Below are positions 30,140 to 33,986 of a stretch of DNA of 33,986 nucleotides, one piece after another; positions within the stretch are counted from its first letter, which is position 1, and each line of letters opens with the position of its first letter. This DNA is from an uncultured Lachnospiraceae bacterium (GTDB lineage Bacteria; Bacillota; Clostridia; Lachnospirales; Lachnospiraceae). Location: NCBI GenBank assembly GCA_944384105.1, contig CALWSC010000037.1:1-33986 (forward strand), in the 5' to 3' direction. Made by a program: the position numbers and the translations under genes. The notes under the pieces are model-generated. The model searched no databases and was not told where the DNA came from. It saw only the letters and a list, made by a program, of their open reading frames with translations.

Positions 30140-31072
30140 TCAGTCGTCCAGAAACATCGGTGTCGACAGGTAGCGGTCGCCGTTGTCCGGGAGAAGGACA
30201 ACGATCGTCTTCCCTTTATTTTCTTCCTTGACCGCAAGCTGCGCTGCTGCCCAGAACGCCGCTCCGGAAGAAATTCCTACAAGAATCCCCTCTTTTCTGG
30301 CAATCTCCCTGCCGGTTCTGTATGCATCCTCATCGCTAACCCGGATAATCTCATCGTAAACTGAGGTGTCCAGGATCTCAGGCACAAATCCCGCTCCGAT
30401 ACCCTGAATCTGATGCGCTCCTGCCTTTCCTCCTGAGAGCACCGGGGAGCCTGCCGGCTCTGCTCCTACGACCCTGACAGCGGGATTTTTCTCCTTCAGA
30501 TATTTTCCCACACCGGTAATCGTACCGCCTGTACCTATGCCAGCAACAAATATATCTACCTTTCCGTCCGTGTCCTCCCAGATCTCGGGACCGGTTGTGA
30601 CGGTGTGGATGTACGGATTATCCGGATTTACGAACTGTCCCGCGATAAAGCTGTTTGGGATCTGGGCAGCCAGCTCGTCTGCTTTCTCGATAGCTCCCTG
30701 CATTCCCTTTGCCCCGTCAGAGAGTACCAGTTCAGCACCGTAAGCCTTCATCAGATTTCTGCGCTCCACGCTCATCGTATCCGGCATAACGATGATCAGC
30801 CGGTAGCCTTTTGCTGCGGCAGCGGATGCAAGCCCAATGCCCGTATTTCCGCTCGTGGGCTCTATAATCACGGAGTCCGGCTTTAAGGTGCCCTTCTTTT
30901 CCGCCAGCTCAATCAGTCCAACCCCCACGCGGTCCTTGACACTTCCCGCAGGATTCAGCCCCTCAAGCTTCGACAGGACAATTGCCTGAAAATTCTTTTC
31001 ACGCGCCAGATTTGCAAAATTTACAAGCGGTGTCTTTCCCACCAGCTCAGTAACCGATTCATAATATTTCAT
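30140..31072 (-). CDS. cysK: Cysteine synthase A (O-acetylserine sulfhydrylase)
   Basis: A 310-residue PLP enzyme that makes cysteine from O-acetylserine and sulfide. The PLP lysine is Lys46 in NPAGSVKDR; PTSGNTG (substrate loop), GIGTGGT (phosphate cup, about 174-180) and the Ser of ISSGAA near the end are all present. The length is that of CysK/CysM. I chose ATG 31072, which has GGAGAG seven bases upstream, over an ATG 15 bases earlier. It follows the GTPase-NYN gene by 22 bases. No cysE or T-box was seen in front of it, so regulation would be through the operon promoter. Confidence 0.96.
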   Translation of the reverse strand: MKYYESVTELVGKTPLVNFANLAREKNFQAIVLSKLEGLNPAGSVKDRVGVGLIELAEKKGTLKPDSVIIEPTSGNTGIGLASAAAAKGYRLIIVMPDTMSVERRNLMKAYGAELVLSDGAKGMQGAIEKADELAAQIPNSFIAGQFVNPDNPYIHTVTTGPEIWEDTDGKVDIFVAGIGTGGTITGVGKYLKEKNPAVRVVGAEPAGSPVLSGGKAGAHQIQGIGAGFVPEILDTSVYDEIIRVSDEDAYRTGREIARKEGILVGISSGAAFWAAAQLAVKEENKGKTIVVLLPDNGDRYLSTPMFLDD

Positions 31073-31094
31073 AATACTTCTCTCCATTCTGCCA

Positions 31095-33746
31095 TTACTT
31101 TTTCAGCTCCGGCGGCAGCAGCTCGGCAAGGTATGTCTTGCCGCTCTCCCGCGCGCGCTCATACGTCTCGCGGATCTCTCTTCCCGCAGCCTCCACCTCA
31201 GCTTTCAGCCCCTGTGCTGAAAGTCTCTCCGCACCCTGCCCCAGGATGATGACCTGCTCCAGCGCGTCTGAGGTCGCCACAGTTACATGGTACTGTCTGC
31301 CGATCTCGTGAACGGTCTTTTCAATGTACTGATCCGCAGTTTCCGCTTCTTTCGTGTATACGACATAAATATTGTGATATTTCAGTACCTCTCCCTGTCC
31401 TCCCTCAACCTTATAGGCGTCAAAGACAAGAATCACTGTCTTCTTTGTATATCCCTGATAGTTTCCCAGAATGTCCATCAGCCTGTTTCTCGCGCCTTCG
31501 ATGCTCACTTCTGCCAGCTCCTTCAGGTCGTCCCACGCGAAAATAATGTTGTACCCGTCTACAAGCAGATATTCCTTCTCATACCGTTTGGGTTTTGCCG
31601 TTTGGGAAGGTCCGTATTCACGGCGGACCGGTGCGCTCGTCTTTTTCCATTTCCGGCGCTCTTTTCCGGACGAGCCGTAGGTACGTGCAAAAATTTCCTC
31701 AAGCTCCTCTTCGTCGATTACACCCTCCGCGAGCGCTGCTCTTCTCTGGGCAATCAGCGGCTCCTCTGCCGGGTTCTCCTCGATCCTGGGATTTAAAAAG
31801 CTTTCGAGGTGCATATAGTCCTCCACCTGATACCACGGCACCACAAAACCCGCTCCGTGCGAACAGAAAACCGATCCCGTCGGGTTCTCCGTGTCCGCCT
31901 CAGAATCGTAATTCATTGCGGCGATTACCTCATCCGCGTTGTGGCACTCCTCATACCCCTTCAGCGTGCAGGTCAGATGCCCGCATCCCCGGGTGTATGC
32001 TGTGACCTCCCGCTGGTAGTCCCTCATACAAGATACGGGAGCAGTTCCGGTTAAAACTGCCGTCTCGCCGTCCGTCTCCGGTGTATCAAAGGTTCCGTAC
32101 ATTTTCTGGATATCTGTCATTGCACGTCCCACATTCTGGACCGGGACTTCCAGACGAAATTCATACACAGGCTCAAGCAGCGCGCTCTGAGCCTTTTTCA
32201 AACCCTGGCGCACCGCGCGGTACGTCGCCTGGCGGAAATCTCCGCCCTCTGTGTGCTTAATGTGCGCCTTTCCGGATACCAGAGTAATCTTCATGTCAGT
32301 GATCTCCGAGCCAGTCAGTACGCCGGGAAATATCCGCTCCTCCAGATGTGTCAGCACCAGGCGCTGCCAATTTCTGTCCAGCTGATCCTCGCTGCACTGT
32401 GTCTCAAACTGCATACCGCTGCCGCGTTCTCCCGGCTCCAGCAGCAGATGTACCTCCGCGTAATGGCGCAGCGGCTCGAAGTGGCCGACGCCCTCCACGA
32501 TATCGCGGATTGTCTCCTTATATACAATAGCGCCGGCATCAAATGTCACAGGTACGCCGAAGCGCTCCAGTATCATGTTTTTTAGGATCTCCATCTGTAC
32601 GATACCCATGACCTGCGCATGAATTTCGTTCAGTTTTTCCTTCCATACAATGTGAAGCTGCGGCTCTTCCTCCTCAAGCTGACGCAGCTTTAAGAACATC
32701 TGAAATACGTCGCTGCCCTCCGGGAGACGAATCTGGTATGTCAGCACCGGTTCCAGCAGCGGAAGTTCTGAAGGCGGCTCGATTCCGATTCCCTCCCCTG
32801 AAACGGTTTTGCTGAGTCCTGTAACTGCGCATACCGTTCCGGCGGGCGCTTCCTGTACTGCCGTAAACTGTACGCCGGAATAGATCCGGATCTGATCTGC
32901 CTTTTCCTCCCAGGAGTTCTCCTCCCCTGAGCTGCGGCTGCTTAACGCCATTTTGACCTTCAGTGTTCCTCCTGTAATCTTCATATGCGTCAGGCGGTTT
33001 CCCTGCGCATCGCGCGAGATCTTATAGATTTTAGCTCCGAACTCCTCCGAATATTCCTTTTCCAGCGTATACGTATACAGTCCTTCGAGAAATTCTTCCA
33101 CACCGGTCAGCTTCAGCGCAGAGCCAAAGTAGCATGGAAAAACCTTGCGCTCTGCGATCAGCGCACAGATCTCTTCCCGGCTCACCGTACCCTCCTCGAG
33201 ATATTTCTCTAAGAGTTCCTCGTCGCAGACTGCCAGCTCTTCCAGAACTTCCTCCCGCTCTATCCGGCTAAAGTCCAGGCAGCGGTCGTCAAGCTTCTTC
33301 TTCAGCTCCTCCATCAGCCGTCCGCGGTCAGTTCCCTGCTGATCCATCTTATTAATAAAAAGAAAGACCGGAATCTGATATCGCTGCAGCAGCCTCCAAA
33401 GCGTCAGCACATGCCCCTGCACCCCGTCTGCACCGCTGATAATGAGAACCGCATAGTCCAGCACCTGAAGCGTACGCTCCATTTCGGGAGAAAAATCCAC
33501 ATGTCCCGGCGTATCCAGCAGTGTGATCTCCCTGTCCTTCAGCGAAAAGCACGCCTGCTTGGAAAATATGGTAATTCCTCTTGCCCGTTCCATCTCATCC
33601 GTATCTAAAAACGCATCCCGGTGATCTACCCGGCCCATCTTCCGAATGCTTCCGGTCAGATACAAAATCCCCTCCGCCAGCGTCGTCTTTCCGGCATCCA
33701 CATGGGCGAGTACGCCTATTGTCAATTTATTTGTCTTCATATGCAT
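31095..33746 (-). CDS. TetM/EF-G-like GTPase fused to a YacP (Rae1)-type NYN domain
   Basis: An 883-residue protein. Residues 8-150 are an EF-G/TetM-type G domain: AHVDAGKTT (14-22), ARGITI (55-60), DTPGH (78-82) and NKMD (132-135). EF-G-like domains II-V follow to about residue 670 (GTLKVKM, the domain IV phrase HTEGGDFRQATYRAVRQGL, and ALLEPVYEF). Residues 724-850 are a NYN/PIN-like ribonuclease domain of the YacP type: VDGYN (729-733), FDAYKV (Asp776), ETADQYIE (Asp805) and ATSDALEQ (Asp827). B. subtilis YacP (Rae1) cuts mRNA in the ribosomal A site. The TetM-like half implies ribosome binding, perhaps ribosome protection. AGGA lies five bases before the ATG. It is first in an operon with cysK and a hydrolase. 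Confidence 0.93.
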   Translation of the reverse strand: MHMKTNKLTIGVLAHVDAGKTTLAEGILYLTGSIRKMGRVDHRDAFLDTDEMERARGITIFSKQACFSLKDREITLLDTPGHVDFSPEMERTLQVLDYAVLIISGADGVQGHVLTLWRLLQRYQIPVFLFINKMDQQGTDRGRLMEELKKKLDDRCLDFSRIEREEVLEELAVCDEELLEKYLEEGTVSREEICALIAERKVFPCYFGSALKLTGVEEFLEGLYTYTLEKEYSEEFGAKIYKISRDAQGNRLTHMKITGGTLKVKMALSSRSSGEENSWEEKADQIRIYSGVQFTAVQEAPAGTVCAVTGLSKTVSGEGIGIEPPSELPLLEPVLTYQIRLPEGSDVFQMFLKLRQLEEEEPQLHIVWKEKLNEIHAQVMGIVQMEILKNMILERFGVPVTFDAGAIVYKETIRDIVEGVGHFEPLRHYAEVHLLLEPGERGSGMQFETQCSEDQLDRNWQRLVLTHLEERIFPGVLTGSEITDMKITLVSGKAHIKHTEGGDFRQATYRAVRQGLKKAQSALLEPVYEFRLEVPVQNVGRAMTDIQKMYGTFDTPETDGETAVLTGTAPVSCMRDYQREVTAYTRGCGHLTCTLKGYEECHNADEVIAAMNYDSEADTENPTGSVFCSHGAGFVVPWYQVEDYMHLESFLNPRIEENPAEEPLIAQRRAALAEGVIDEEELEEIFARTYGSSGKERRKWKKTSAPVRREYGPSQTAKPKRYEKEYLLVDGYNIIFAWDDLKELAEVSIEGARNRLMDILGNYQGYTKKTVILVFDAYKVEGGQGEVLKYHNIYVVYTKEAETADQYIEKTVHEIGRQYHVTVATSDALEQVIILGQGAERLSAQGLKAEVEAAGREIRETYERARESGKTYLAELLPPELKK

Positions 33747-33776
33747 ATCTATCCTGTTATTTTTTTATATAATGTT

Positions 33777-33785
33777 ATTGTATCA
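33777..33785 (-). promoter_or_regulatory. Extended -10 promoter of the GTPase-NYN operon
   Basis: TGATACAAT on the minus strand, about 30 bases before the start codon; the -35 region is weak (CGCACA). The short leader has no leader peptide of the tet(M) attenuation type. Confidence 0.55.
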
Positions 33786-33854
33786 TATACCGGAGCGGCT
33801 GTGCGTGAAAAAATTTTGAAAAAAAGAGCCGCCTCTGATTATTGATATGCCCCC

Positions 33855-33867
33855 TGTCAAGTAGACA
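33855..33867. mobile_element. Possible end of an insertion sequence
   Basis: TGTC-AAGTA-GACA just after a run of C, about 110 bases upstream of the GTPase-NYN gene. The TG start and the palindromic end resemble ends of IS3-group elements of Clostridia, and a plus-strand terminator follows 30 bases inside. No transposase is seen before the window ends, so this is only a suggestion. Confidence 0.25.
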
Positions 33868-33895
33868 GATCAAATATCTAAAATAAGATGCTCTG

Positions 33896-33929
33896 AATCA
33901 GTCGCACGATTTCGTGCGGCTGATTTTTT
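33896..33929 (+). terminator. Rho-independent terminator near the right edge
   Basis: AATCAG/CTGATT and CGCACG/CGTGCG arms with one T-G pair between them and an ATTT loop, ending in a run of T on the plus strand. No plus-strand gene ends here, so it would stop transcription entering the region to the right. Confidence 0.8.
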
Positions 33930-33986
33930 ATGCACACCACTTAGCTTTATATTTCTCAATTCGTTTATTTTTTGCTATTGGATATG

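Follow-up and report, generated by a model that had tools for sequence, protein, structure and literature searches.

A single gene at this locus joins a GTPase resembling TetM and EF-G to a nuclease domain of the YacP/Rae1 type, and the question it raises is whether the product is a tetracycline resistance protein, as some of its kin are labelled, or a factor that brings an mRNA nuclease to the ribosome. The window, that is the whole stretch of 33,986 nucleotides that was analysed, carries this fusion at 31095..33746. An earlier note on this DNA had placed it there correctly as one frame of 883 aa but had not stated the strand, which is the minus strand; in the given frame the plus strand of 31095-33746 contains many stops. 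The features of the gene are as follows.

31095..33746, minus strand: whole fusion gene, 883 aa, ATG to TAA, a single intact frame
33782..33811, minus strand: promoter-like site about 35 bases upstream of the ATG, from a consensus scan only
33069..33725, minus strand: G domain, residues 8-226, with G1 AHVDAGKT, DTPGH and NKMD (Pfam PF00009, motifs and conservation)
32802..33035, minus strand: domain II, residues 238-315 (PF22042, EF-G_D2, match below its cut-off)
32541..32753, minus strand: domain III, residues 332-402 (PF14492, EFG_III, match below its cut-off)
32187..32531, minus strand: domain IV, residues 406-520 (PF03764, EFG_IV, over cut-off)
32232..32273, minus strand: loop III of domain IV, residues 492-505, G-[RK]-[AS]-H-x-K-H-T-E-G-G-D-F-R, with K497 opposite TetM Pro509
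31938..32180, minus strand: domain V, residues 523-603 (PF00679, EFG_C, over cut-off)
31809..31937, minus strand: clade-specific C-terminal extension, about residues 604-646, SVFCxHGxGFxVxWxxVxxYMH, which also terminates unfused GTPases
31575..31808, minus strand: linker, residues 647-724, weakly conserved and about 65-140 aa long across 128 fusions
31674..31709, minus strand: short motif of the linker, residues 680-691, EELEEIFARTYG, its pattern found in 115 of 128 linkers and I685 in 58 of 58 fusions
31107..31568, minus strand: NYN_YacP (Rae1-type) nuclease domain, residues 727-880 (PF05991; match to solved YacP 5mq8/5mq9)
31557..31559, minus strand: codon of D730 (motif check and conservation)
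31419..31421, minus strand: codon of D776 (motif check and conservation)
31332..31334, minus strand: codon of D805 (motif check and conservation)
31266..31268, minus strand: codon of D827 (motif check and conservation)

The consensus scan found 5 promoter-like sites in 30900-33986 compared to a mean of 2.5 in shuffles, and the one about 35 bases before the ATG would leave scant space for a leader peptide. The gene that starts 7 bp downstream of the fusion, at window 30140-31087, we take from its sequence to be cysK-like. It adjoins the fusion only in two same-genus loci of the 111 compared, a third, partial match (L197) lying far from the gene, and it was therefore dropped as an operon partner and no functional link is drawn.

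That one chain joins a TetM/EF-G-like GTPase to a YacP/Rae1-type NYN domain, as the earlier note had read from the letters, is supported by the Pfam domains and by solved YacP structures. GTP_EFTU at residues 8-226, over its cut-off, scored E 4.8e-50 and NYN_YacP at residues 727-880 scored E 4.1e-50, the latter (PF05991) with 170.5 bits against a cut-off of 24.6, and all the EF-G-like domains, G, II, III, IV and V, are present in the fusion, II and III with Pfam matches below cut-off. The NYN domain aligns, including its four aspartates, with the solved YacP chains 5mq8 and 5mq9, which are presumably of the Bacillus subtilis type. The G motifs, claimed to be intact, were indeed found in their places, with the P-loop AHVDAGKT at residue 14, GIT at 57, DTPG at 78 and NKMD at 132. 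When 58 fusions were aligned (alignment A2, from which 20 of 77 full-length fusions were omitted), H15-D17, G19-T21, G57-T59, D78-H82, K133 and D135 were invariant and N132 (57/58) and A18 (49/58) nearly so, while the acidic residues D730, D776, D805 and D827, also claimed to be intact, were present in 58 of 58 and are conserved in stand-alone YacP as well.

Thirty relatives from related genomes align along the chain with 49-93% identity, which argues that the fusion did not arise by chance. One of them (L040), which a contig end truncates within the NYN domain, was kept in the 31-row alignment, and a 31st relative (L037), truncated at the front, was omitted from it. In these 31 rows domain IV was the best conserved domain of the fusion with a mean of 0.817, and conservation of the linker over residues 656-724 was 0.334 compared to 0.64-0.82 for the domains. 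When the gene was compared with two same-genus relatives, dN/dS was 0.015 and 0.017 for the NYN domain and 0.041-0.052 for domain IV, values that are rough because synonymous sites are near saturation, and the values against a third relative, L035, were mostly saturated. In the NYN domain, 28 positions were conserved in both the fused (41 rows) and the stand-alone (21 rows) sets, and no position was conserved differently between these 41 and 21 rows. Both enzymatic halves look intact and are under purifying selection. In or just before the C-terminal extension (31809-31949), C601 (57/58), C628 (58/58) and H646 (58/58) could form a metal site.

Among 61 related genomes PF05991 was present in 51, and by frame length and a GTPase search 32 of the 61 had the fused form, 19 the stand-alone form and 10 neither, two of the genomes (G008 and G012) being cut by contig ends. 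The fused genomes were 29 of the 37 in the own family and 3 of the 24 in other families of the order, and the fusion was single-copy in 29 of those 37. The earlier note had asked for a survey of genomes that have the fusion and lack a separate yacP, and the pattern was found with at least one exception. No separate yacP was detected in the window's own genome, which is 78% complete, and no second PF05991 match in 31 of the 32 fusion genomes, the 32nd having only a 26-position remnant; one exception is G385, a genome of the class, which has the fusion as well as a 174-aa stand-alone YacP. Across the class PF05991 was found in 249 of 391 genomes, nearly always once, and five genomes had two matches; G192 has two fusions, and G195, G259 and G299 each have two PF05991 matches. 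Among the matches listed, no YacP match was found in 9 of the roughly 165 class genomes where the GTPase matched strongly, and about 93 class genomes had YacP and no strong match to the GTPase. A search of public genomes gave at least 597 stretches coding for relatives of the fusion's C-terminal half, a number that may include unfused kin since the search patterns were placed within domain IV and the NYN domain. Among the best 80 of these loci, a fused frame of full length, 840-1037 aa, was found in 77; within these 80, the fused-frame records come from Lachnospiraceae, Oscillospiraceae, Clostridium, Desulfosporosinus, Anaerovorax and others. The nearest named loci are mostly records of Lachnospiraceae and other gut-type Clostridia, from which the source of the gene is probably a relative of this group. 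A stand-alone NYN_YacP-like protein was also seen on 12 Clostridioides plasmid records of the 23 matching (for example NZ_CP149721.1 48824-49291), and 13 phage records also match NYN_YacP.

Beside stand-alone yacP, gene clusters that we take from homology to be rlmB-, cysS-, sigH- and mrnC-like were found in 12, 11, 10 and 10 of 15 loci, respectively, the rlmB name being backed by TIGR00186. None of these four clusters recurs beside 111 fusion loci. In B. subtilis, Rae1 is a separate small protein whose gene adjoins and is co-transcribed with yacO, an RlmB homologue (PMC6613710), whereas here the NYN domain is the C-terminus of a GTPase encoded at unrelated loci. The rlmB locus was read in 31 of the 32 fusion genomes, G008 having no rlmB match, and in 30 of the 31 no yacP match was found there; two of the stretches end 422 and 518 bases past rlmB. 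sigH lies directly after rlmB in 24 of the 31, with a gap of -7 to +156 bases in 23 of these and of +273 bases in G056, and among the other 7 loci, where sigH is not next, two stretches are contig ends. It is in G056, the 31st genome, that a 52-aa stub of yacP remains between rlmB and sigH (L231 4783-4941, minus strand). Three members of the own family that have neither gene were also without yacP at the rlmB locus, and thus the loss of yacP does not need the fusion. The simplest reading of these gene arrangements is that the stand-alone yacP was replaced in its function by the fusion and appears then to have been lost.

A probable explanation of this architecture is that the GTPase half would load onto paused ribosomes and deliver a Rae1-type nuclease to the mRNA in the A site. 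Rae1 is reported to cleave mRNA at the A site of the ribosome (PMC6613710, PMC12320835), in B. subtilis on its own, and the first substrate known for it is S1025 (PMC11780869). In the fusion, domain IV with its conserved K-H-T tip would probe the decoding centre when the A site of a ribosome is vacant or paused, and hydrolysis of GTP would then free domain IV from the A site. The NYN domain, on its tether of about 80 residues, would next enter the same A site and cut the mRNA, and the ribosome would be passed to rescue. Since each of them would have to occupy the A site, domain IV and the nuclease are expected to take turns there and not to work at the same time. We give a probability of roughly 0.5 to the reading that a GTPase clade related to Tet and EF-G proteins, and distinct from them, is tethered to what is apparently the only YacP and acts as a loaded A-site mRNA nuclease; the motifs of both halves, the selection, the one fused clade of the sampled tree and the absence of a stand-alone yacP from its ancestral operon site in the fusion genomes examined are read from sequence, and the mechanism we infer.

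The genes beside stand-alone yacP, rlmB-like in 12 of 15 loci and mrnC-like in 10, would also suit a role in ribosome maturation or quality control of the subunits, in which the GTPase would check new ribosomes and the NYN domain would trim or destroy rRNA. A role in rRNA/tRNA maturation has been proposed for this domain, as cited by Atkinson (PMC4342817). We consider this explanation unlikely, since the activity reported for Rae1 of B. subtilis is cleavage of mRNA in the A site (PMC6613710, PMC12320835) and since the fusion lies away from the rlmB operon in the 111 loci compared.

The unfused GTPases of the clade stop shortly past the SVFC...YMH extension, at a position matching residue ~646-657 of the fusion, about where its linker begins, and thus in the fusion a full GTPase is followed by a linker and an entire YacP. 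These unfused proteins, the 'translation factor GTPase family protein' of related genomes, have the same loop III and C-terminal extension and are about 42-50% identical to the GTPase of the fusion. The unfused GTPase of Ligilactobacillus salivarius was grouped with the clade by its match; such a relative, L315 (pMP118, L. salivarius UCC118), carries a tetracycline resistance annotation and has rpsN (ribosomal protein S14) and a putative gene for metal homeostasis in its vicinity. In a GTPase tree of 65 rows the 41 fused rows formed one clade with SH-aLRT 100 and the 19 unfused rows fell outside, the tree being a quick search without bootstrap that sampled 41 of 128 fusions, omitted a split GTPase (L107) and had as outgroup L106 (36% identity, no C-terminal extension). 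The tree made from the NYN domain is poorly resolved, and in it the fused rows were not one clade, with 4 changes. Fused and unfused GTPases of the clade did not occur together in any of the 61 genomes. The linker pattern [DEQKNT][EDQKT][LIVM]xxI[FILYM], which was picked after inspecting the linkers and whose rows are related to one another, occurred in 115 of 128 linkers, whereas 300 shuffles gave 1.64 on average and at most 6, and the unfused GTPases stop short of it. Only 8 GTPase positions were specific to the fusion when 41 fused and 19 unfused rows were compared, and therefore nothing points to an extensive new interface between the GTPase and the NYN domain.

These few positions, a long and variable linker and the occurrence of each half alone in genomes of the class, which speaks against a strict coupling of GTPase and nuclease, would all agree with a coupling by location only, in which paused ribosomes would be restarted or cleared by the GTPase, and the nuclease would work separately, on different ribosomes. 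This we consider rather unlikely, because the 41 fused rows make up one clade that holds no unfused row, the linker motif is conserved and a separate yacP is absent in most fusion genomes.

The earlier note had suspected that the tetracycline resistance label of such proteins may be misleading. When scored with the NCBIfam models, the fusion reached 423.8 bits on tet_protect, where the cut-off is 775, and 274.4 on the TetM/W model, where it is 1100, and six fused and unfused kin had 398-431 on tet_protect, whereas three Tet-like genes of related genomes, taken as controls, passed with 819-851 and 1284-1308, respectively. On the EF-G model TIGR00484 it was also below the cut-off, with 281.2 compared to 659.4, and two further EFG_IV frames, 720 and 715 aa long, are present in the same genome. 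The closest solved relatives of the GTPase half are TetM and TetO (3j9y, 4v6v), with which it shares domains G to V and the length of loop III, and from which it differs by the replaced tip of this loop, a different C-terminal extension and the added linker and NYN domain. At the tip, most of the clade has H-x-K-H-T-E-G-G and four Tet-like controls have Y-S-P-V-S-T-P-A, of equal length, and the Tet-type tip is not found in the fusion; K497 was present in 40 of 41 fused and 18 of 19 unfused rows, H498 in 41 of 41 and 18 of 19, and T499 in all 60. The tip of domain IV of EF-G reaches the A site. That of TetM reaches the A-site tetracycline pocket, and Pro509 of TetM, which K497 faces in the alignment, overlaps the bound drug (PMC7456112). 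The S508A single and the S508A P509A V510A triple mutants of TetM are reported as able to be active (PMC4750697), so the replacement of loop III in the fusion is not proof that it is not a Tet protein.

A separate Tet-like gene lies alongside the fusion in 5 of the 32 fusion genomes (L108, L109, L111, L112 and L113), three of them confirmed by NCBIfam. Among the 20 plasmid matches listed, 18 kin carry the label of the TetM/TetW/TetO/TetS family and 2 are called 'translation factor GTPase family protein'; of the two fused kin among them, both in class Clostridia records, that of Agathobacter rectalis has the Tet-family label and that of Monoglobus pectinilyticus the other. That the gene might be a mobile resistance gene was rejected, as only 2 of 956 plasmid matches (E 1e-30) cover at least 80% of the chain, and these two are on replicons of 252 and 518 kb typed as non-mobilizable. 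By its scores and its loop III the GTPase half would not be classed as a Tet protein, and the Tet label looks misleading.

That the fusion is nevertheless a tetracycline ribosomal protection protein to which an RNase domain was added, the RNase adding to resistance as Atkinson suggested in 2015, is quite improbable, for the closeness of TetO and TetM, the EF-G-like domains with a loop III of Tet length, the Tet-family label on one of the two fused and most of the unfused kin among the matches listed and the activity of altered TetM loops (PMC4750697) are set against scores far under the curated cut-offs that three Tet-like controls pass, Tet loop residues replaced throughout the sampled clade, a separate Tet-like gene in 5 of 32 fusion genomes and one copy in 29 of 37 own-family genomes, unlike a typical acquired gene. 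Tetracycline resistance is thus a weaker reading than delivery of an A-site nuclease, and the ribosome-protection alternative is disfavoured.

The delivery of an A-site nuclease can be put in a bolder form, which we offer tentatively as a possibility. The fusion may be a self-contained, GTP-driven A-site nuclease in which the K-H-T tip of domain IV inspects paused ribosomes and, when a pause is not resolved, the tethered Rae1 swings into the vacated A site, and it may serve as a standard triage factor of many Clostridia that is filed in part under Tet labels.

A GTPase-NYN fusion was described in ten clostridial species by Atkinson in 2015 (PMC4342817), filed as Tet and with resistance by RNase activity suggested, and therefore the architecture is not new. 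The fusion studied here is like those in kind, being an EF2-family GTPase to which a YacP-like NYN domain is added, and in its clostridial origin; it differs in that its GTPase fails two Tet tests, in that the fusion is far commoner and in that it appears to replace the stand-alone yacP. A literature search, with most subscription literature outside its scope, found no other paper that describes the fusion and no experimental study of such a protein. As far as our searches show, four findings are new: the sequence data that speak against a Tet label, the grouping of the sampled fused GTPases in one clade, the apparent displacement of yacP, of which one stub survives, and the short motif conserved in the linker.

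The fusion is a real, well-conserved protein of a published architecture. That Rae1 has been tied by evolution to a translational GTPase suggests that both steps belong together, and here they can be tested in one gene. For resistome counts it means that a widespread and usually single-copy gene is filed in part under a tetracycline resistance name which its sequence does not support.
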